Origin: a bacterium
GTDB taxonomy: Bacteria; Pseudomonadota; Gammaproteobacteria; Burkholderiales; Thiobacillaceae
NCBI GenBank assembly: GCA_009772925.1
Contig: WOUQ01000012.1
Location: forward strand, 1 to 59,140
DNA: 59,140 bases
Direction: 5' to 3'
Part shown: piece by piece, positions 34,818 to 53,645 of the stretch
How the letters are laid out: each line of letters opens with the position of its first letter
How positions within the stretch are numbered: position 1 is the stretch's first letter
Made by a program: the position numbers and the translations under genes
Notes under the pieces: model-generated
Databases searched by the model: none
What the model was told of the DNA's origin: nothing
Seen by the model: only the letters and a program-made list of their open reading frames with translations

Positions 34818-35387
34818 TCAGTACTTGAAGCTGCGTTCCTGCCAGCCCGAATCCAGCTGCCAGCGGGCGGACGAGGCCAGGGCGTTGACCTGGAGCGGCT
34901 TCGGCAGCTGGGCGATGTCCAGGTACATGCGGATGTAGGCGCGGTGGTTGGATTTCTTCCTGGTCTGATTGACGTTCAGCACCACCCAGTCGCGCAGGTC
35001 GCCCGCGGCGCGCAAGGCGTCTTCCAGGCTGTCGTGGGCGGAAAAGCTGCCCTGTATGGTCACGTAGAACTGCCGCAGCAGGGCGTTGTAGGACACGCGC
35101 ACCGGCCGTTGCAACTCGATGAGGTCTTCCGCCAGCCAGTAATCACGTTCCCGCTGCACCTCGAAGGCCTGCACGAAGCTGAGCTGCACGCCGCGCATGA
35201 GGGCTTTTTCCAGGGTCCCGGAAAGCTGGACGTCGAACTGGCCGGAGAGGATGAACTGCTCGCCCTTCAGGACGATGTCCGCCTTCGCAAGCTGGATGCT
35301 TTCCGCCCGCGCCATGGGCGCCACCGCCAGGGCCATCAGGCCGGCCGCGGCGCGCAGGAGGAAATCACGTCTTGTGCAGGCGGGCAT
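34818..35387 (-). CDS. DUF4390 exported protein with Tat-like signal
   Basis: The 189-residue protein matches the DUF4390 family, found between rsmB and ntrY in betaproteobacteria. The N-terminus (CTRRDFLLRAAAG..., cleavage near AARA/ES) looks like a twin-arginine signal. The ATG at 35387 was chosen because it gives the signal a normal length; an ATG at 35399 is equally possible. It overlaps the rsmB stop by 23 bases. The function is unknown; the gene position suggests an envelope role linked to NtrYX. Confidence 0.82.
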   Translation of the reverse strand: MPACTRRDFLLRAAAGLMALAVAPMARAESIQLAKADIVLKGEQFILSGQFDVQLSGTLEKALMRGVQLSFVQAFEVQRERDYWLAEDLIELQRPVRVSYNALLRQFYVTIQGSFSAHDSLEDALRAAGDLRDWVVLNVNQTRKKSNHRAYIRMYLDIAQLPKPLQVNALASSARWQLDSGWQERSFKY

Positions 35388-36630
35388 AAAAGAATCCATC
35401 GGTATCCGGGCCGGGCAGCAACTGACCCGCGCGCGCGCCGGGCAACTCGGGGAGATCGAGGCGCGCGTCGGCGTGGCGCGCGGCAAAGGCCATCATCTGC
35501 GCCTGGTTTTCGGCGCGGAACAGGCTACAGGTAGCGTATAGCATTGTGCCACCCGGTTTCAGGAGCGGCCACAAGGCATCCAGCAGGCGCGCCTGTTCCT
35601 TCGCCAGTTGTTGCATATCCTCGGCACGTTTCAGCCATTTACCGTCCGGATGGCGGCGCGCCACGCCGGAGGCGGTGCAGGGCGCGTCGAGCAGAATGCG
35701 GTCGAAGGGTCGGCCGTCCCACCAGGCGGCGGGCTCGCCCGCGTCGGCAACCTGCAGGCTGGCGTCGAGGCCGAGGCGGTCGAGGTTCTCGCGCACCCGT
35801 CGCAATCGTGTTGCGTCGTTGTCCAGCGCCAGCAGATCGAGGTCGGCCAGTTCCAGCAGGTGACCGGTCTTGCCGCCCGGTGCCGCGCAGGCGTCGAGGA
35901 CGCGCATGCCGTCGCGCGCATCGAGTAGCGGCGCCGCCCATTGCGCGCCGACATCCTGCACCGACAGCAGGCCGGCGGCGAAGCCGGGCAGCTCGGCGAC
36001 CGGCAGGGGGCGCTCGAGGGTCAGTGCCCAGGGTCCGGTCTGTCGCGCCGCGATGCCGGCCGCGTTCAGCGCGGCCAGACGTTCCTCCGGGCTGGCGCGG
36101 CGGCGGTTGACGCGCAGGGACATGCACGGCGGCGTGTTCTGTGCGCCCACGATGCTTTCCCAGGCATCGGGATATTCCTCGCGCAGGCGGCGCAGCCACC
36201 AGGCGGGAAAGTTCCAGCGCGCCTCGGGCAACCGCTCGGCCTCGGCGGCCAGTTCCTCGCGGCGACGCTGGAAGTTGCGCAGCACGGCGTTGGCGAAGCC
36301 GCGCGCGGCGGGTTGGCGGCGCGCGGCCAGTTCGACGGTGGCATGCACCACGGCGTAGGCCGGGGTTTCGCCCAGCTCCAGTTCGTGCAGACCGGTCAGC
36401 AGCGCGCCGAGCAGCTCGGGCGGGCGCAAGGGTCGGTCGGTCAGGCGCGAGAGGTAGTAACGCAGGCTGCCGGCGCGGCGCAAGACGCCGTAGGCCAGGT
36501 TGGCGGCGGACGCGCGGGCCGGCGCGTCACCGTCCTCGGCGCGGCTCTCGGCAAGCGCCTGGGAAAGGCTGCGGTGGTCCAGGAGAACGTGGTTGATCAG
36601 CCTGGCCGCCAGGGCGCGCGCATCGGTCAT
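35365..36630 (-). CDS. rsmB: 16S rRNA (cytosine-967 C5)-methyltransferase RsmB
   Basis: The 421-residue enzyme has an N-terminal NusB-like domain (LAARLINHVLLDHRSLSQAL) and a NOL1/NOP2/Sun methyltransferase domain with the SAM site DACAAPGGKTGHLLEL and two catalytic cysteines in DAPCTASG and YATCSLF. Its length fits E. coli RsmB. It is the first gene of the rsmB-DUF4390-ntrY-ntrX run. Confidence 0.96.
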   Translation of the reverse strand: MTDARALAARLINHVLLDHRSLSQALAESRAEDGDAPARASAANLAYGVLRRAGSLRYYLSRLTDRPLRPPELLGALLTGLHELELGETPAYAVVHATVELAARRQPAARGFANAVLRNFQRRREELAAEAERLPEARWNFPAWWLRRLREEYPDAWESIVGAQNTPPCMSLRVNRRRASPEERLAALNAAGIAARQTGPWALTLERPLPVAELPGFAAGLLSVQDVGAQWAAPLLDARDGMRVLDACAAPGGKTGHLLELADLDLLALDNDATRLRRVRENLDRLGLDASLQVADAGEPAAWWDGRPFDRILLDAPCTASGVARRHPDGKWLKRAEDMQQLAKEQARLLDALWPLLKPGGTMLYATCSLFRAENQAQMMAFAARHADARLDLPELPGARAGQLLPGPDTDGFFYARLHKT

Positions 36631-46403: not shown

Positions 46404-47411
46404 ATGCACACCGGCACCACGCTCACCCAGTTCATCATCGAGGAACAACGCCACATCGCAGGCGCCACCGGCGATTTCACCGCCCTGCTGAACGACCTGG
46501 TCACCGCCATCAAGGTCATCTCCAACACCGTCAACAAGGGTGCCCTGGTGGGCGTGATGGGCGCGCTGGACAGCCAGAACGTGCAGGGCGAGACGCAGAA
46601 GAAGCTGGACGTGATCACCAACGACATCATGATCCGCACCAACGAGTGGGCCGGCCACCTGGCGGGCATGGCCTCGGAGGAGATGGACGAGGTCTACCCC
46701 ATCCCCCACCGCTATCCCTTGGGCAAGTACCTGCTGGTGTTCGACCCGCTGGACGGTTCCAGCAACGTCGACATCAACATCTCGGTCGGCACCATTTTCT
46801 CCATCCTGCGCGCGCCGGTGCCCAACCGCGCCGCCGCCGAGACCGACTTCCTGCAGCCCGGCGTCAGGCAGGTCTGTGCCGGCTATGCGCTGTACGGTTC
46901 CTCCACCATGCTGGTGCTGACCATGGGTCACGGCGTCAACGGCTTCACCCTGGACCGGGAAGTGGGCGAGTTCATCCTCACCCATCCGGACATGAAGATT
47001 CCCGCCGACACCAAGGAATTCGCCATCAATGCCTCCAACCAGCGCTTCTGGGAACCGCCGGTGCAGCGTTACGTGGAGGAATGCCTGCAAGGCAAGGAAG
47101 GCCCGCGCGGCCGCGACTTCAACATGCGCTGGGTCGCCTCCATGGTGGCCGAGGTGCACCGCATCCTTACCCGCGGCGGCATCTTCATGTATCCGCGCGA
47201 CACCAAGGACCCGGGCAAACCCGGCAAGCTGCGCCTGATGTACGAAGCCAACCCGATGAGTTTCATTGTCGAGCAGGCGGGTGGCGCCTCATCGACCGGC
47301 TACGAGCGCATCCTGGATATCGCGCCGGAGGGATTGCACCAGAGGGTGCCGGTGATCCTGGGCTCGAAGAACGAGGTGGAGGTGGTGGTGGGGTACCACG
47401 GACAGCACTGA
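46404..47411 (+). CDS. fbp: Fructose-1,6-bisphosphatase class 1
   Basis: FBPase removes phosphate from fructose 1,6-bisphosphate in gluconeogenesis and the Calvin cycle. The 335-residue protein has the metal-binding DPLDGSSN (from D114) and the C-terminal [12 protein letters not shown], all intact; GAGGAA precedes the ATG. Codons 249-335 are a second version of a sequence also present at 48135-48395. This intact tail uses AGG, TTG and ATT codons that are rare in the rest of the gene, and no terminator follows, so the tail may be of foreign origin. Confidence 0.95.
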
Positions 47412-47427
47412 CTTCGGCGGGCGCGAC

Positions 47428-47847
47428 CTACAACAGCGTGAAACCGGCTCCATCCGGCAGGCGGTAGCGGGAGAAATCGGCGACGTCCACGGTCATGATT
47501 TCCAGGATGCCGGTTTCCACGGCTAGCCAATACAGGCTGGCATCCGCCAGGTCCATTTCCCGCTTGCCCGGCTCGGTGTAACGCGTCATCCATTCGATGA
47601 TGTCACCCAGGTGATGGGGATCGAAGGGGTACACCTGGACGCCGCCCAATTCTATCCAGCGCAGCATTTCAAATCGCTGTGGCGGGTCCAGCAGATAGGC
47701 GGCCTCCACCACGCACGGCCAGGTGGTCAGCAGCCGTAAGCCGTGCTCGCCCAGATCACGTAAAAGCCCGTCAAAGCGGGCATGGTGCTTGTCATCCGGG
47801 GCGAACAGGGCCAGCAGCGGGCCGGCGTCAAGCAGAACGTTGCGCAC
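47428..47847 (-). CDS. PIN-domain toxin (VapC-like)
   Basis: The 139-residue protein has PIN ribonuclease features: the first acidic residue D7 in [13 protein letters not shown] in VVEAAYLL, and the later acids in EMDLADASLYWLA and TVDVADF. Such toxins cut tRNA or rRNA until bound by the antitoxin. It overlaps the upstream antitoxin by 20 bases. The stop lies 17 bases from the fbp stop, convergent. Confidence 0.88.
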   Translation of the reverse strand: MRNVLLDAGPLLALFAPDDKHHARFDGLLRDLGEHGLRLLTTWPCVVEAAYLLDPPQRFEMLRWIELGGVQVYPFDPHHLGDIIEWMTRYTEPGKREMDLADASLYWLAVETGILEIMTVDVADFSRYRLPDGAGFTLL

Positions 47848-48067
47848 GCAGTCTGGCCTTGAACCTGTCTCCGGTCGCCTCCGAGGTATCGACCGCTCCC
47901 ATCGGTGTTCCGCTGCGCGCCTCTCGCAGCAAGTCGTAAGGGTTTTTCATGCCCAGTACGCGCTCGATCGCGTCGCGCACGAAATCGCTTTTGCTGATGC
48001 CAAGCCGATGCGCTTCCTGTTCGATACGCGCTTCGACCAGAGGATCCAGTCGCAGGGACAAGGCCAT
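47828..48067 (-). CDS. Ribbon-helix-helix antitoxin (CopG/VapB-like)
   Basis: The 79-residue protein begins [23 protein letters not shown], a ribbon-helix-helix DNA-binding motif with the [14 protein letters not shown] helix, followed by a tail suited to binding the toxin. GGAG lies before the ATG. It is the first gene of the pair and should repress its own promoter through the palindromes at 48087-48111. Confidence 0.86.
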
Positions 48068-48086
48068 GTTGGACTCCGTATGTTTG

Positions 48087-48111
48087 TATTACGGAATACA
48101 CGATATCGTGC
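48087..48111 (-). promoter_or_regulatory. Palindromes upstream of the antitoxin gene, candidate operator
   Basis: GTATTACGGAATAC (48087-48100) has 5-bp inverted arms, and CACGATATCGTG (48100-48111) is a perfect 12-bp palindrome. They stand 20-44 bases before the antitoxin ATG, the usual place for autoregulation by a ribbon-helix-helix antitoxin. Confidence 0.5.
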
Positions 48112-48131
48112 GAGATGTATGGAGGCAAGGG

Positions 48132-48395
48132 GTCGCCGAGGTACACCGCATCCTCACGCGCGGCGGCATCTTCATGTGCCCGCGCGACACCAAGGACCCC
48201 GGCAAGGCCGGCAAGCTGCGCCTGATGTACGAGGCCAACCCGATGAGCTTCATCGTCGAGCAGGCGGGCGGGGCGTCATCGACCGGCTATGAGCGGATTC
48301 TCGACATCCAGCCGGAAGGCCTGCACCAGCGCGTGCCGGTGATTCTGGGGTCGAAGAAGGAAGTGGAAGTGGTAGAGGGGTACCACGACGGCTGA
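48132..48395 (+). pseudogene. fbp: Detached 3' fragment of fbp
   Basis: The segment encodes [14 protein letters not shown]... to a TGA at 48393-48395, corresponding to FBPase residues 249 to the end. It has no start and is cut off from the rest of fbp by the toxin-antitoxin pair. Compared with the intact tail it differs in about five residues (for example Y to C in FMYPRD) and many silent bases, so the two are not a fresh copy of one another. Its codons (CGC, CTG) fit the host, and the terminator follows it, so it may be the original end of fbp. Confidence 0.9.
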
Positions 48396-48415: not shown

Positions 48416-48440
48416 AACGGGGCTTAGGCCCCGTTTTCTT
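48416..48440. terminator. Intrinsic terminator, probably original for fbp
   Basis: AACGGGGC (48416-48423) pairs with GCCCCGTT (48428-48435) around a TTAG loop and is followed by TTCTTTC. It lies 20 bases after the fbp fragment and overlaps the stop codon of the converging nucleotidyltransferase gene. Confidence 0.7.
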
Positions 48441-49512
48441 TCTTGGACGCCTCCTCATTGCGTTCCGCAAGAAAGGCCTTGTAGAACAGGTGGGGGATAA
48501 GCAGGTGGAGGGGCATGCGCAGCCAGTGGCCGCGGACGTAGAGAAGCCAACGGCCCATTTCAGACCATGTGTCGGCACAGCTGGCGTGCTGGGGGGCCAG
48601 GGCGCGGCCGAACATGGCATCCATGAACGCCGGCAAGGCGGGGCCCCATGTCTTCCAGGGACCGGCAGGGACAGGGGTATCCAGGATGGCGTTGCAGTAG
48701 CGCAGGGCGTAGTAGAGCGGTCGGGTCAGGTTGAGCTCAGCTGCCCGCTCTTCCAGCTCCGCCCAGAAGCCCGACTCCCGCGCCGGGAATAATCGCAACA
48801 GGGCATCCAGATCGGCCAGATCTCTCAGGCTGTGGTTGTATTCCCCCTCGGTGAACAAGTGTGTTGCGCTATGCAGCAGCATGTCGGTCGGGGCCAGGAC
48901 GTAAAGGTTCGGGTATCCGTCCAGGGCTATAGCCTTGGCGAACAAGAGTTCTGGCTGGCTCTTGATGCGGGCGGTGAGGGGTAGGATGGCATGGTGGAGG
49001 TCTATGACCGTCATGCGCCGGATATGCTGCAACGGCGGAATCTCGTGCATCCACTTGCGGTAATAGCGGTGGTCGTAAGGCGTGTGATGCCCTCCCGCCC
49101 AACCGTGGAAATTCAGGATCTTTTCGGCAGTGGCCAAGTGTGCCGCGGGGACGAGTAGGTCGATGTCCGAGAAGGTCCGGCCGAGTGAGCAGGGCAGCTC
49201 GGACATGACATAGGCGGCGCCCTTGAGGAGCACCACGGGGATATCGCTCCCTTCGAAGGCGGCTTGGATCCTATCCACCTCGAAGCGGACTGCCTGGTTT
49301 TGCCGGTTCGCGACGATGCGGGCGCCTTCCAGATACTCGCCCGGTCTCCCCGAGACGCTGAGGCCTTGCGCCTCTGCCAGCCAAGCCAGTCGGGCGACCA
49401 GGCCCGCTCGCCTGGCCTGTGGTATCAGGATGTCCCACTGGGAAAGGCTCAGGCCTCCGAGCTTCTGGGGATTGCGGAGGATGCCCGCCAACAATGAATC
49501 GCGCGCCAGCAT
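48424..49512 (-). CDS. Nucleotidyltransferase family protein of the HprK-related cluster
   Basis: The 362-residue protein has the minimal nucleotidyltransferase signature: VVLLKGAAYV, then a GRTFSDIDLLVP metal-binding D-x-D block, and a later acid in VIDLHHAI, as in the NTP_transf_5 family. Such proteins may add a nucleotide or phosphate to a protein or peptide. It ends the minus-strand run of exported protein, PqqD-like, kinase and this gene. AGGA precedes the ATG. Substrate unknown. Confidence 0.8.
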   Translation of the reverse strand: MLARDSLLAGILRNPQKLGGLSLSQWDILIPQARRAGLVARLAWLAEAQGLSVSGRPGEYLEGARIVANRQNQAVRFEVDRIQAAFEGSDIPVVLLKGAAYVMSELPCSLGRTFSDIDLLVPAAHLATAEKILNFHGWAGGHHTPYDHRYYRKWMHEIPPLQHIRRMTVIDLHHAILPLTARIKSQPELLFAKAIALDGYPNLYVLAPTDMLLHSATHLFTEGEYNHSLRDLADLDALLRLFPARESGFWAELEERAAELNLTRPLYYALRYCNAILDTPVPAGPWKTWGPALPAFMDAMFGRALAPQHASCADTWSEMGRWLLYVRGHWLRMPLHLLIPHLFYKAFLAERNEEASKKENGA

Positions 49513-49559
49513 GATGGTCCTAACGGCAAGATGCCGCGGATTCTAACTTGGGGGAAGGC

Positions 49560-50483
49560 CTAGCTTGCGGCGGAGGTTGGCGGCGCCAGCCTGGAGAAGG
49601 TCTCCACGGCGTCGTCCAAGCGGCTGTATGCGAAGCTGAAACATTCGCACCGGTCAATGGTGTCGGCCAGGACGCGAAAGCCTTCCTCGCCCAAGGCGCT
49701 GTAATTGAAGGCGCTGTCCGCGAGCTGCATGAAGGCCTCGCCCTTTGGCATGGTGACAAGGCGAGGCGAGGCGCCCGCCTCGTATCTGGGGAAGATCACC
49801 CAGGCAGGCGGGGCCGGTTCATGCGCCCGCCTGACACTGTTGTCCGGGGCACGCAAGTGGGCGACGGTGCCCTTGCTGGTCTCCGTGGCCGGCTCTCCGA
49901 TCACCGCCCCGGGCTCAAAGGCGCGGATGATGTCGATGGACTGGTTCTTCAGGTTGACAGGCCGGGCGATGGGCATGAGCAAGCCGCTGCGACGTGAAAC
50001 CAGCGCCAGTTCGTCCGACAGCAGGCGCCAGCCCCGCTGCACCAGCGCCGCGCAGAGGGTGCTTTTTCCGGAGCCCGGCGGGGCGGGCAGGATGGCCGCG
50101 TGGCCGTTCCGCTCGATGACCCCCGCATGGATGGTCAGGTACTGGTGACAGTGGCTGGAGATGCACCAGTTCAGCCCCCATTCCAGCAGGGCATAGCCGT
50201 GTTGCACGGGCAGGGGCTTGAAGGGGATGTGGCCATCATGGGAGAACAGCACCTGGGGCCGCAACCAGCGCCGTAAGCCTCCTGGCGAAGCCACGGTCAC
50301 ATGAAAGTCAGCGAAACCGTTTTCCTCGCCCAGGGGAAAATTGCCGTACATGAGCGATATGCCGTCCATCACGCTTGGCAGGCCGGTGCGTAGGTTGACG
50401 GTGAACTCGCCCATGCGCAACCGCAGTCCACCCTCGCGGAGCCGGTCGTGCAAGTCAGCGGGGGTCAGTTGGGAGAGAAGCAA
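49560..50483 (-). CDS. HprK-related kinase (HprK-rel-A type)
   Basis: The 307-residue protein resembles the C-terminal kinase domain of HPr kinase: Walker A PPGSGKST at 135-142, preceded by a conserved histidine near 119 (TIHAGV), and followed by LLSDELALV. It is not a true HprK, which works on HPr in the PTS; related kinases act in lasso-peptide and similar gene clusters. It overlaps the PqqD-like gene by 19 bases, so the two are made together. The substrate is not known. Confidence 0.82.
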   Translation of the reverse strand: MLLSQLTPADLHDRLREGGLRLRMGEFTVNLRTGLPSVMDGISLMYGNFPLGEENGFADFHVTVASPGGLRRWLRPQVLFSHDGHIPFKPLPVQHGYALLEWGLNWCISSHCHQYLTIHAGVIERNGHAAILPAPPGSGKSTLCAALVQRGWRLLSDELALVSRRSGLLMPIARPVNLKNQSIDIIRAFEPGAVIGEPATETSKGTVAHLRAPDNSVRRAHEPAPPAWVIFPRYEAGASPRLVTMPKGEAFMQLADSAFNYSALGEEGFRVLADTIDRCECFSFAYSRLDDAVETFSRLAPPTSAAS

Positions 50484-50737
50484 GTACGGCTCAACAGGCC
50501 CTTGGTCTGCAGTTCGCCCACGACCGCATGCAGGTGTGCCAGAAACGCCTGATCAGCCTTGACGCCGACTTGGCGAGCGATGGAAACGGCCATGCGCTCC
50601 AGATCCCAACTGCCCTCCGTAGCCGCCAAGAGGACCTGCGCGGCCAGGCCATTGACCAAGTGGGTGTCGCCCGAGCGAAGGGCATGGACGACGCACTGAT
50701 CGTCCCAGCAACGGATCTGCATCAGGGGCTGCGACAA
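50465..50737 (-). CDS. PqqD-like protein (RiPP recognition element type)
   Basis: The 90-residue protein fits the PqqD fold, with a variable N-terminal strand region (CVVHALRSGDTHLVN) and helices up to VVGELQTKGLL. PqqD-type domains bind the leader of a peptide and present it to modifying enzymes. It is co-transcribed with the HprK-like kinase and is 4 bases from the exported-protein gene. No radical SAM enzyme or cyclase is nearby. Confidence 0.75.
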   Translation of the reverse strand: MSQPLMQIRCWDDQCVVHALRSGDTHLVNGLAAQVLLAATEGSWDLERMAVSIARQVGVKADQAFLAHLHAVVGELQTKGLLSRTCFSPN

Positions 50738-50741
50738 GGGC

Positions 50742-51407
50742 TCAGAAGACGGAGCCAGGATCGTTCAGGTAGGCTTTGATGGTGTCCGCGTACCATTTCT
50801 TGCCTGCCGTGGGCGCGAAGAAACCGTTGCGTGCGAATTCGTCCTCGATGCCGCGGACACTGGGGTCGGGGCCAATGGCCTGGATGACACCTCCGTACTT
50901 TCCAGAAGCCGCATTGAGTAGGCCCGCGACGAACCACTTGGCAAGATCTGCTGGACCAGGAAATGGTGCATTTGGTGTTAAGCCATTCAGGACTTCCCAC
51001 AAGCTGTAGGACTGATTGTTGCCCTTGGCCATGTTGAGGAATGGACCTGCCGTAAAAAGCGGATGGAACGGGTCGCTAGGTTTAATGCCTGGGTTCCCGG
51101 TGCCAGGCCAAGCTTGATTTTGCTGCACTTGGCCACCGTTGTTTTTGGGGGCATTGTCAATCCACCACTGCGGGGTTTGTGGGGAGCATCCGGTTGTAAT
51201 GGGGTTGTGCTGGCTATGGTTACCCGATCCTGCAGCGGAGGGGGTCAGGCAGGTCGCACCCAGCACCGGCCGGCTGGCCAGGGTGGCCAGAACCACCGGG
51301 GCGGCGAGTCCGGCTTTGCCAAACGAGCGGCGGGATTGATCCACGGTGGGGGAGTTCTGCTGAACGTCCCTGGGGAGATCCGGTTGAGGGTGTTGTTGCT
51401 TGTTCAT
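50742..51407 (-). CDS. Tat-exported protein of unknown function, possible substrate of the cluster
   Basis: No family is recognised. The 221-residue protein has a twin-arginine signal near residues 25-51 with SRRSFGKAG and a hydrophobic core ending LGA. The mature part has only two cysteines (53 and 74), is rich in proline, glycine, asparagine and tryptophan, and ends LNDPGSVF. GGAG precedes the ATG. It opens the operon and the 5' leader is AT-richer than the surroundings. As the only exported small protein in the cluster, it is the natural candidate for modification by the kinase and nucleotidyltransferase. Confidence 0.6.
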   Translation of the reverse strand: MNKQQHPQPDLPRDVQQNSPTVDQSRRSFGKAGLAAPVVLATLASRPVLGATCLTPSAAGSGNHSQHNPITTGCSPQTPQWWIDNAPKNNGGQVQQNQAWPGTGNPGIKPSDPFHPLFTAGPFLNMAKGNNQSYSLWEVLNGLTPNAPFPGPADLAKWFVAGLLNAASGKYGGVIQAIGPDPSVRGIEDEFARNGFFAPTAGKKWYADTIKAYLNDPGSVF

Positions 51408-51551: not shown

Positions 51552-52493
51552 CTAGGGTTCAGCACCCAGGCCGCTGAACCGGCCAATACTCAGGCGTTCA
51601 ACCCCAGACAGGTCGGTCAACGCTGTAACACGGGTGAATCCGGCTTGACGCAGGAGTGTCTGACAAGAATCCTTTTGGTCAAAGCCGTGCTCGATCAATA
51701 GCCAGCCGCCTTGGACCAGGCGGGCAGGAGCCCCGACGATGATGGCGCGAATCGCGTCCAGGCCGTCATATCCGGAAACAAGGGCGCCGACAGGTTCACC
51801 TAGCAGGTCTCCTCGCCGCAGGTGCTCGTTTCCTGAAGTGATGTAGGGCGGATTCCCGACGATCATGTCGAAATTTTTTACACTCAGATCGGCATACCAG
51901 TCGCTCAAGATCCAGGTGATCTGGTCCGCGCCGAGGCGGCGTGCGTTATCCCGCGCCACGGCGAGGGCTTGGGCGGAGGCGTCGAGGGCGCTGACTTCAG
52001 CCCGCGGTCGTTCCAGCGCCAGGCTGATGGCGATGCAGCCGCTGCCGGTGCCGAGGTCGAGGACGCGCGCGGGGCGCTCCGGCGGCAGGCGGTCCAGGGC
52101 GGCTTCCACCAGCAATTCGGTTTCCGGGCGGGGAATGAGCACGTCGGGCGTGACGCGGAAGACGCGGCCGTAGAACTCGCGCTCGCCCAGGATGTAGGCG
52201 ACCGGCTCGCCGCCGGCGCGGCGGGCGAGCAGGGCTTCGATGGCCACGGTCTGGGCCGGGCTGAGCGTGTCGCGGTCGTGGGCGATGAGCCAGGAGCGTT
52301 CGACGCCGAGGCCGCGGGCGATGAGGATTTGCGCTTCCAGGCGGGCTTCGCGGCGTTCGAGGCCGAGCGCGGCTTGCAGGCGCGCGGCGGCTTCGCGCAT
52401 CAGGTCGGCGACGCGGGGAGCCGTGCCCGGCCGGCCCTCTCCCCCGGCCCCTCCCCCCGGGGGGGAGGGGAGAACGTCGGCCTCGCGCCTCAT
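51552..52493 (-). CDS. prmC: Release factor glutamine methyltransferase PrmC
   Basis: PrmC methylates the GGQ glutamine of release factors. The SAM site VLDLGTGSGCIA and catalytic NPPYITSG are intact. The ORF from ATG 52493 begins with about 25 residues encoded by a GC palindrome (DVLPSPPGGGAGGEG), not part of the family; an ATG at 52400 (MREAAARLQA) fits E. coli PrmC better. It lies just after prfA, as usual. The last third of the gene (51552 to about 51930) is visibly lower in GC than the first part. Confidence 0.9.
   Translation of the reverse strand: MRREADVLPSPPGGGAGGEGRPGTAPRVADLMREAAARLQAALGLERREARLEAQILIARGLGVERSWLIAHDRDTLSPAQTVAIEALLARRAGGEPVAYILGEREFYGRVFRVTPDVLIPRPETELLVEAALDRLPPERPARVLDLGTGSGCIAISLALERPRAEVSALDASAQALAVARDNARRLGADQITWILSDWYADLSVKNFDMIVGNPPYITSGNEHLRRGDLLGEPVGALVSGYDGLDAIRAIIVGAPARLVQGGWLLIEHGFDQKDSCQTLLRQAGFTRVTALTDLSGVERLSIGRFSGLGAEP
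52448..52470. repeat. GC-rich hairpin between prfA and prmC
   Basis: CCCCTCCCCCC (52448-52458) is complementary to 52460-52470 with one base between, a nearly perfect short palindrome of the CTCTCCCCC...GGGGGAG type. It is part of a low-complexity stretch (about 52436-52475) read in frame by the longer form of prmC. Confidence 0.65.
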
Positions 52494-52497
52494 CCGT

Positions 52498-53580
52498 TCA
52501 CTCTTCCCCGGCCAGGGCGGCGAGCAGTTCGGCCTGGTGCTCGGCGGTGAGGGCCTGGATCAGTTCGTCCAGCTCGCCTTCCATGACGAAGCTCAGCTTG
52601 TACAGCGTCAGGTTGATGCGGTGGTCGGTGACCCGGCCCTGCGGGAAGTTGTAGGTGCGGATGCGGTCGGAGCGGTCGCCGGTGCCGATCAGGCTCTTGC
52701 GCGTGCTGGCATCCTTCGCCTGGGCTTCCCGGTCGCGCTGGTCCTTCAGGCGGGCCGCCAAGACCGACAGGGCCTGGGCCTTGTTGCGGTGCTGTGAGCG
52801 GTCGTCCTGGCATTCCACCACCAGGCCGCTGGGCAGGTGGGTGATGCGCACGGCCGAGTCGGTCTTGTTGATGTGCTGGCCGCCGGCGCCGCTGGCGCGG
52901 AAGGTGTCGATGCGCAGGTCGGCGGGGTGGATGTCGATCTCGCCGGCCTCGGCCGCTTCCGGCATCACCGCGACGGTGCAGGCGGAGGTGTGGATGCGGC
53001 CCTGGGCCTCGGTCTCCGGCACACGCTGGACGCGGTGGCCGCCGGATTCGAACTTGAGTTTGGAATAAGCGCCAGTGCCTACGATGCGGGCGATGACCTC
53101 CTTGTAGCCGCCCACCTCGCCTTCGCTTTCCGAAACCACTTCCACCTTCCAGCCCTGGCGCTCGGCGTAGCGCGCGTACATGCGGAACAGGTCGCCGGCG
53201 AACAGGGCGGATTCGTTGCCGCCGGTGCCGGCGCGGATTTCCAGGAAAATGTTGCGCGCGTCGTTGGGGTCCCTGGGCAGCAGCAGGACTTGCAGTTGCT
53301 CGTCCAGTTCGGCGAGGCGGGCCTGCGCCGCCTCGATTTCCTCCTGGGCGAAATCCTTCATGTCCGGATCGGACAGCAGGCTTTCGGCGGTGGCCAGATC
53401 AGCGCGGGCCTGCTGCCAGGCCAGGTAGTGCTCCACCACCGGGGTGATATCTGCGTGTTCCTGGTTGAGCTTGCGGTACTGGGCGAGGTCCGCCGTGGCG
53501 CGCTCGTCGGCCAACAGGCGATCGAGCTCCTCGCGGCGCAGGGCGAGATGTTCGAGTTTCGCTTGCAGGCTGGGTTTCAT
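52498..53580 (-). CDS. prfA: Peptide chain release factor 1
   Basis: RF1 ends translation at UAA and UAG. The 360-residue protein has [16 protein letters not shown] with the catalytic GGQ, and the start [10 protein letters not shown] at 53580 gives normal family length. It follows hemA on the same strand. The upstream extension to 53616 is rejected since it runs into the palindrome. Confidence 0.97.
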
Positions 53581-53589
53581 GGGAATGTT

Positions 53590-53645
53590 GTAGGAGCGGC
53601 CTTGGCCGCGATCCACCGTGCAATCGCGGCCAAGGCCGCTCCTAC
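53590..53645. repeat. REP-like palindrome at the end of hemA
   Basis: GTAGGAGCGGCCTTGGCCGC at 53590 onwards pairs perfectly over 23 bases (53590-53612) with 53623-53645. This is the common GTAGGAGCGGC repeat type. The hemA stop codon TAG (53642-53644) is contributed by the right arm. Confidence 0.85.

Follow-up and report, generated by a model that had tools for sequence, protein, structure and literature searches.

A conserved four-gene cluster of Pseudomonadota that may modify a Tat-exported protein guided by its own signal

Four closely spaced genes on the minus strand of a 59,140-nucleotide stretch of DNA from a member of the Thiobacillaceae (GenBank assembly GCA_009772925.1, contig WOUQ01000012.1, positions 1 to 59,140; the whole stretch is called the window here) encode a protein with a twin-arginine translocation (Tat) signal, a PqqD-like protein, an HprK-related kinase and an NTP_transf_5 nucleotidyltransferase-like enzyme. 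The chances are about even that this cluster is a leader-guided protein-modification operon that acts on the Tat-exported protein. Across the loci compared, three otherwise unlike products are found under one Tat-signal leader with an extra motif, beside the same enzymes. A broader reading, which we rate somewhat below an even chance, is that of a widespread system of the Pseudomonadota: the Tat signal would double as the leader of a ribosomally synthesised and post-translationally modified peptide (RiPP), an enzyme trio would add a phosphosugar to whole exported proteins and to short Gly-Ser peptides, and Tat and the general signal peptidase would replace a dedicated exporter and leader peptidase. 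The evidence, all of it computational, comprises the gene set and its conservation, the predicted fold of a recognition element, catalytic residues, conserved serines and a shared leader.

The four genes form a conserved unit

The cluster and its features lie at the following positions of the window.

50742..51407, minus strand: exported protein, the proposed substrate; 221 residues, containing SRRSFGKAG
51258..51332, minus strand: twin-arginine signal, also the proposed leader; residues 26-50, from an alignment of 124 proteins, with the small residue Gly50 at the proposed -1 position
51291..51308, minus strand: LAAPVV (LxxPxV), residues 34-39; variant of a recognition motif described for lasso and PQQ leaders
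51186..51251, minus strand: proposed modification region, residues 53-74, with Cys53, Ser57, Ser61, Asn63, Ser65 and Cys74; conservation in 102 proteins
50465..50737, minus strand: PqqD-like protein, the proposed recognition element; 90 residues, TTG start; TIGR04353
49560..50483, minus strand: HprK-related kinase A; 307 residues, TTG start; TIGR04352
50058..50081, minus strand: kinase P-loop PPGSGKST, residues 135-142; aligned with the P-loop of solved HprK
48424..49512, minus strand: NTP_transf_5 nucleotidyltransferase-like enzyme; 362 residues; PF14907

An earlier note, made from the sequence alone, had described these four closely spaced genes, and a check of the open reading frames (ORFs) confirmed all four positions, the motifs and the 19-base overlap of the PqqD-like and kinase ORFs (50465-50483, given the TTG start); the commonest overlap of the two genes in named homologues is 4 bases. 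The HPr-rel-A family names given in the note are borne out by NCBIfam, in which the PqqD-like protein scores 41.7 bits against TIGR04353 (cut-off 35) and the kinase 396.6 bits against TIGR04352 (cut-off 200). The fourth product matches PF14907 of Pfam at 186.8 bits (gathering cut-off 31.2, E 6.6e-55). The 90-residue protein is recognised by NCBIfam only, with no PqqD match from Pfam. The source genome has a single kinase above the TIGR04352 cut-off, and its second match (26.5 bits, contig C1) falls far under it. As the note had also stated, the set of four includes no gene for a protease, a cyclase or a radical SAM enzyme.

The four genes are a real unit because all of them are present at 76 of 80 named loci (the best 80 of at least 585 confirmed candidates from one collection scan) and in 37 of 40 class-draw loci, counts that refute the rare joint occurrence which the note had allowed for. 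The class draw is an even sample of 369 genomes of the window's class; 41 hold a kinase above the TIGR04352 cut-off, and the stretches around the kinase were taken from the 40 that remain once the window's own is set aside. One gene is missing in each exception, namely the exported protein in L082, the NTP_transf_5 gene in L084 and the PqqD call in L087; L082 and L084 are situated at contig ends. The exported protein is present in 79 of the best 80 named loci. The exported-protein and PqqD-like profiles were iterated on ORFs of the same loci, and weak members lean partly on position; PqqD calls were restricted to 170 or 180 residues (class-draw and named loci). ORFs begin at the first ATG, GTG or TTG, and many lengths are therefore too long.

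The exported-protein profile, A2, matches 37 of the 41 kinase genomes compared with 47 of the 369 genomes overall (counted by hand), where about 5 joint genomes would be expected if kinase and profile were independent. Ten profile-A2 genomes are without a kinase above the cut-off; five of these have short-peptide loci (see below) and five have neither. Among 20 loci from relatives that were fetched via the exported protein, all four genes are present in 16 and the kinase with NTP_transf_5 in 19. The kinase is absent within 16 kb in L106, a locus with two exported-protein genes.

Three gene orders are found. The window has the arrangement TAT-pqqD-kinase-NTP5 (TAT, exported protein; NTP5, NTP_transf_5), 15 of the 20 loci fetched via the exported protein have pqqD-kinase-NTP5-TAT, and in six class-draw loci NTP5 is divergent from TAT-pqqD-kinase. 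Exported-protein genes are paired and adjacent in five loci (L092, L100, L103, L105 and L106), where one enzyme set may serve two substrates.

When the other ORFs of the 80 named loci were clustered and the 26 commonest clusters named by reading (several are antisense frames), the commonest neighbour was an NtrC-like response regulator, found in 37 of the 80 and mainly on the opposite strand. Flanking genes include prmC-like (29/80), glutaredoxin-like (29/80) and prfA-like genes (28/80), and in the window prmC and prfA lie upstream of the cluster (51552-53616). No further member of the module is evident among these 26 clusters, which were read without a family-library scan.

A predicted recognition element and two enzymes

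The AlphaFold model of the PqqD-like protein (predicted local distance difference test score, pLDDT, of 86) has the order E-E-E-H-H-H, a strand and helix plan as in recognition elements. The top nine PDB matches of this model in Foldseek, with probabilities of 0.98-1.00, comprise TbiB1 with its leader, another lasso B1 with its leader and a sactipeptide enzyme; PqqD follows at rank 12 (0.97). The protein is thus predicted to have a RiPP-recognition fold, nearest to the leader-bound lasso B1. The earlier note had put forward a structure prediction of this protein together with the N-terminus of the exported protein; the leader-binding fold is predicted from a single-chain model.

The kinase profile aligned to HprK structures across the P-loop core only (E 7e-4). 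His119, Lys140, Asp157 and Glu158 of the kinase are invariant in 56 of 56 aligned relatives, and lasso-peptide kinases reportedly require His-Lys-Asp-Asp (PMC9266682). Likewise, Lys97-Gly98, Arg112, Asp116 and Asp118 of the NTP_transf_5 enzyme (Lys-Gly...Arg...Asp-x-Asp) are invariant in 45 of 45 aligned relatives. These counts cover kinases of 250-345 residues (56 of 60 kept) and NTP_transf_5 enzymes of 320-420 residues (45 of 59 kept). By these alignments, both enzymes appear to have intact catalytic residues. A PDB sequence search with the NTP_transf_5 enzyme returned no relative at E up to 1. A metabolic HPr kinase was rejected as an identity for the kinase: the P-loop core alone aligns to HprK, and the neighbours are an exported protein, a recognition element and an NTP_transf_5 enzyme.

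At L200, L201, L204, L205 and L206, further HprK-like kinases are accompanied by a PqqD-like gene, by an NTP_transf_5 gene or by both, and the first profile found no Tat-leader peptide there. The enzyme set at these loci may serve other substrates.

The exported protein carries an apparent Tat signal and a conserved serine region

The exported protein has no NCBIfam or Pfam match at E up to 1, and its Tat signal was therefore read from the sequence. The pattern of a Tat substrate (twin arginine, hydrophobic stretch, small residues at -3 and -1) is present by this reading and conserved in the family, while no match to a curated Tat model was obtained at E up to 1. Family searches with six homologues gave nothing above cut-off. 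A PDB sequence search with the exported-protein profile gave one chance-level match (E 0.94), and the best E in a fold search was 3.2, with a model whose pLDDT is only 69.

In an alignment of 124 non-redundant exported proteins, the arginines at positions 26 and 27 are conserved at 98-99%, Thr42 at 81%, Leu43 at 80%, Ser45 at 84% and Pro47 at 75%, and position 50 is Ala or Gly in 99%. The Tat signal is followed by CxxxSxxxSGNxS...C, and the domain after that is marked by SPGYWK, W and LLNA motifs, the first of them degenerate in the window's protein. Conservation after the signal, in the 102 proteins that were not fetched via the exported protein, is 99 for Cys53, 95 for Ser57, 96 for Ser61, 77 for Asn63, 83 for Ser65 and 95 for Cys74. 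The C-terminal GYWK...LLNA domain is also seen in larger secreted proteins, close to their end and without this Tat-type leader (L300, L301 and L303; ORFs of 290-630 residues). Since the domain is found elsewhere without the leader, the leader and the serine region are the operon-specific part of the protein.

One leader precedes three kinds of product

The window type has CxxxSxxxSGNxS, the second type ends in CxxS, and the third consists of short Gly-Ser peptides with YxxPx[LVI] in their leader. The short peptides came to light as further matches of profile A2 to ORFs of about 56-149 residues with the pattern SRRxFLKKxAYVAPAxLTLxAxPxxAxxGS..., which share little with the exported proteins beyond the leader. 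Many of these ORFs have as neighbours a PqqD-like gene, an NTP_transf_5 gene and a kinase that scores under the TIGR04352 cut-off. Profile A4, built from 12 of the short peptides, gave 23 strong matches (E up to 1e-8), spread over 11 of the 369 genomes. A sub-cut-off kinase is found within about 3 kb of 11 of these matches (8 genomes, counted by hand), and one more match (G353) adjoins PqqD-like and NTP_transf_5 genes at a contig end. A [YW]xxPx[LVIAFY] motif is present inside the signal of 23 of the 24 distinct short peptides; 12 of the 24 built the profile, and the motif is in 11 of the other 12. Gly-Ser follows the twin arginine by 27-30 residues in 23 of the 24 and by 35 in the remaining one. 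Three short peptides scanned against NCBIfam had no match above cut-off. Loci with short Tat-leader peptides include L193 (9653-11178), L195 (5876-9203), L192, L196, L197 and L288-L297, with up to three peptides per locus and extra copies elsewhere in the same genomes.

The second type was seen in part through a draw from the phylum, in which 46 of 249 genomes have a kinase above the cut-off, 41 of them outside the window's class. Twelve of these 41 were examined: 10 have an exported-protein profile match beside the kinase and PqqD-like gene, in L283 the protein was recognised by eye, and in L284 no exported protein was seen. The out-of-class proteins have the leader in common but no SGN motif. 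Near the C-terminus, C-x-x-S-[FLIA] is found in 14 of 15 picked proteins without SGN, several of which are from the window's class; the exception is L062. L083 and L285, outside the 15 counted, also lack it by eye.

The kinases largely group by substrate class. In a tree of 48 rows the substrate-class labels need 5 changes, compared with a minimum of 3 and a shuffled mean of 24.5. Two kinases labelled as first-group, those of L083 and L090, are placed among second-class kinases, and their substrates indeed lack SGN. The L298 kinase is placed apart from the short-peptide group, and the deep joins of this tree are unsure owing to several long branches.

The leader compared with ordinary Tat signals

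The pattern RR-x13/14-[TS][LVI]-x-[SA]-x-P-x-x-[AG] is present in 85 of 144 family proteins and in none of 37 NapA and MsrP signals, a control that is imperfect in that the motif was defined on the test family and the search span was 150 residues for the family and 44 for the controls. The control signals are those recognisable in 57 NapA/MsrP loci from the same class (22 of 27 NapA, one of them a misread frame, and 15 of 30 MsrP), and those of NapA carry strong positional conservation of their own. By the 0/37 in this imperfect control, ordinary Tat-signal conservation was rejected as the whole cause of the leader likeness.

Comparison with known systems

The window's kinase and PqqD-like protein belong to the HPr-rel-A system of NCBIfam (TIGR04352 kinase; TIGR04353 PqqD family peptide chaperone), both above cut-off. 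NCBIfam names the parts only, without a reaction or substrate; what the present analysis contributes is the exported substrate, the leader motif and the connection with NTP_transf_5. Among open-licence PMC papers, none was found that names TIGR04352 or TIGR04353, although subscription papers and preprints may hold more; none was found that names PF14907 or NTP_transf_5, or that treats at least three of PqqD, HprK, Tat signal and RiPP together. A term search of the RRE-Finder paper found neither HPr nor kinase.

The nearest known system is that of the linear polyphosphorylated peptide (LPP) clusters of Bacillota (2026), which have a discrete recognition element, an HprK-like kinase and an NTP transferase, with no macrolactam cyclase in the core set (PMC13381572). 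LppK polyphosphorylates Ser3 of a linear peptide, next to the leader (PMC13381572). The enzyme types are the same, and the YxxP leader motif of LPP is as in the short peptides described above. LPP clusters have a dedicated SipW-like (SpI-like) signal peptidase, an MsbA-like exporter and precursors of 35-200 residues, whereas in the present system the leader is a Tat signal and the substrate a 221-residue protein whose C-terminal domain is found in other secreted proteins. The LPP-type signal peptidase and MsbA-like exporter are absent from the four-gene set and went unnoticed among the 26 commonest neighbour clusters read in the 80 loci. The words twin-arginine, Tat, Proteobacteria and Pseudomonadota do not appear in the LPP paper (PMC13381572).

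Phosphorylated and phosphoglycosylated lasso peptides (paeninodin, pseudomycoidin and BsfA) likewise involve an HprK-like kinase, a nucleotidyltransferase and a recognition element (PMC9266682, PMC8498205, PMC10368454). BsfK phosphorylates Ser3, and the recognition element BsfB1 speeds the reaction (PMC10368454); PsmK followed by PsmN yields phosphoserine and then one or two hexoses (PMC9266682, PMC8498205). Unlike these, the present set has no cyclase or B2 peptidase, and its substrate is not a small lasso precursor. A lasso peptide cluster was rejected on this ground, as the macrolactam cyclase and B2 leader peptidase are not among the four genes.

Two further systems resemble parts of the cluster. 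DUF2063/DUF2282 systems also pair a recognition element with exported precursors, but through Sec rather than Tat signals and with no specific leader motif reported (PMC12710340). NapD, like the PqqD-like protein as proposed, is a small cytoplasmic protein that binds a Tat signal, that of NapA, before export (PMC3712460). NapD and NapA have no partner kinase, unlike the cluster described here. The predicted fold family of NapD probably also differs from that of the PqqD-like protein.

Proposed mechanism and alternatives

In the proposed mechanism, the exported protein would be synthesised with a twin-arginine signal that doubles as a RiPP-type leader. The PqqD-like protein would grip the hydrophobic part of the signal (LxxPxV...TLxSxP) and present the substrate to the HprK-like kinase, which would phosphorylate a conserved serine just past the signal, Ser57 or Ser61, once or several times. 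The NTP_transf_5 enzyme would then add a group onto the phosphate, most likely a sugar from a nucleotide-sugar. Finally, the released, decorated protein would exit via Tat and signal peptidase would cut off the leader. Modification before export would fit, since Tat transports folded proteins and has a known signal-binding chaperone (PMC3712460). Binding, phosphorylation, the added group and the order of steps are all drawn by analogy with the systems above. By this analogy, phosphorylation of the exported protein is probable and, in our judgement, likelier than the sugar step by the NTP_transf_5 enzyme, for which the chances fall slightly short of even. An envelope or surface protein that bears a phosphosugar is a guess at the biological role.

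Several observations count against this mechanism. In the nearest known system, the NTP transferase LppN showed no activity in the host used for testing (PMC13381572). The Foldseek E-values of the PqqD-like model are modest, ranging from 1.1e-3 to 0.16 and never as low as 1e-3, and the fourth catalytic residue of the kinase, Asp in lasso kinases, is Glu in 56 of 56 relatives. In the second substrate class the conserved serine lies at the opposite end of the protein, and some loci have no detectable exported protein (L121, L284). The recognition motif is also a poor fit in the leaders of the window's class. Its relaxed form, [YWL]xxPx[LVIAFY], occurs in only 30 of 143 family leaders (the window's L34-A-A-P37-V-V39 included) versus 1 of 37 controls; the loosest form, any residue followed by xxPx[LVI], is matched by 88 of 143 but by 9 of 37 controls as well; and strict [YW]xxPx[LVIAFY] occurs in none of the 143. 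Because the strict motif is present in 23 of 24 short peptides versus 0 of 143 leaders, the short peptides fit the known recognition sequence outright and the window's class has drifted away from it. YxxP to LxxP is reported as a usual variation of the motif (PMC12710340).

Alanine changes in the YxxPxL motif of BsfA left phosphorylation unaffected (PMC10368454), a result that also weighs against the mechanism and agrees with an alternative in which the PqqD-like protein is mainly a NapD-like Tat signal chaperone that delays export, while the kinase and nucleotidyltransferase do not need it to act on the protein or on a bound cofactor. We consider this proofreading role unlikely: the fold predicted for the PqqD-like protein is that of a RiPP recognition element, the known binding motif is in 23 of 24 short-peptide leaders, and chaperone and leader-binding roles can coexist.

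The earlier note had proposed that the set phosphorylates or nucleotidylates a protein substrate. Its first half gains from the apparently intact enzymes (56/56 and 45/45) and from the same trio modifying a serine in lasso and linear peptides (PMC9266682, PMC10368454, PMC13381572). Nucleotidylation appears the less likely half, as PsmN, the sole relative with an observed product, gave a hexose on the phosphate (PMC9266682, PMC8498205). In an alternative along this line, the kinase would phosphorylate once or more and the group from the NTP_transf_5 enzyme would be a nucleotide instead of a sugar, serving for reversible control or as an attachment point for a further group. The fourth gene does belong to a nucleotidyltransferase fold family, the report on PsmN leaves room for a nucleotidylated intermediate (PMC9266682), and the LppK, PadeK-like and PsmK kinases polyphosphorylate (PMC13381572, PMC9266682). 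No eraser gene for reversible control turned up, though no search aimed at one was made, and we regard nucleotidylation or polyphosphorylation as a minor contender. It is more doubtful still that the trio acts on something else, with the exported protein merely carried along in a conserved stretch of chromosome. The prmC-like and glutaredoxin-like flanks (29 of 80 named loci each) do mark a stable region where passengers could persist, but three gene orders, differing surroundings and unlike mature proteins go with the same leader type.

If the leader-guided mechanism is correct, secreted bacterial proteins would be shown to carry a new modification on serine. RiPP-style recognition of leaders would then reach beyond small peptides to whole exported proteins, with a single signal serving both modification and Tat export. 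The enzymes are of known type; the apparently new parts are the whole Tat-type substrate, the union of signal and leader, and the short peptides with a Tat leader, which are a ready RiPP candidate family. The mechanism also offers a testable function, substrate and site for TIGR04352 and TIGR04353, and a genomic setting for PF14907.

Surroundings of the cluster in the window

Promoter and terminator scans found sites no more numerous than in shuffles. Among the ORFs that adjoin the cluster, family searches identified fructose-bisphosphatase, ribbon-helix-helix and PIN products; further neighbours were named by reading only. The ribbon-helix-helix gene (47828-48067, minus strand) and the PIN-domain gene (47428-47847, minus strand) form a pair that resembles a toxin-antitoxin system. 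Beyond this pair, a partial second copy of the 3' end of the fructose-bisphosphatase gene lies inside the ORF at 47949-48395 (within 46404-48395), as if the pair had been inserted and had duplicated the end of that gene. Another ORF with a Tat-like start (RRDFLLRAAAGLMALAVAPMARA), at 34818-35486 on the minus strand, does not carry the TLxSxP motif.

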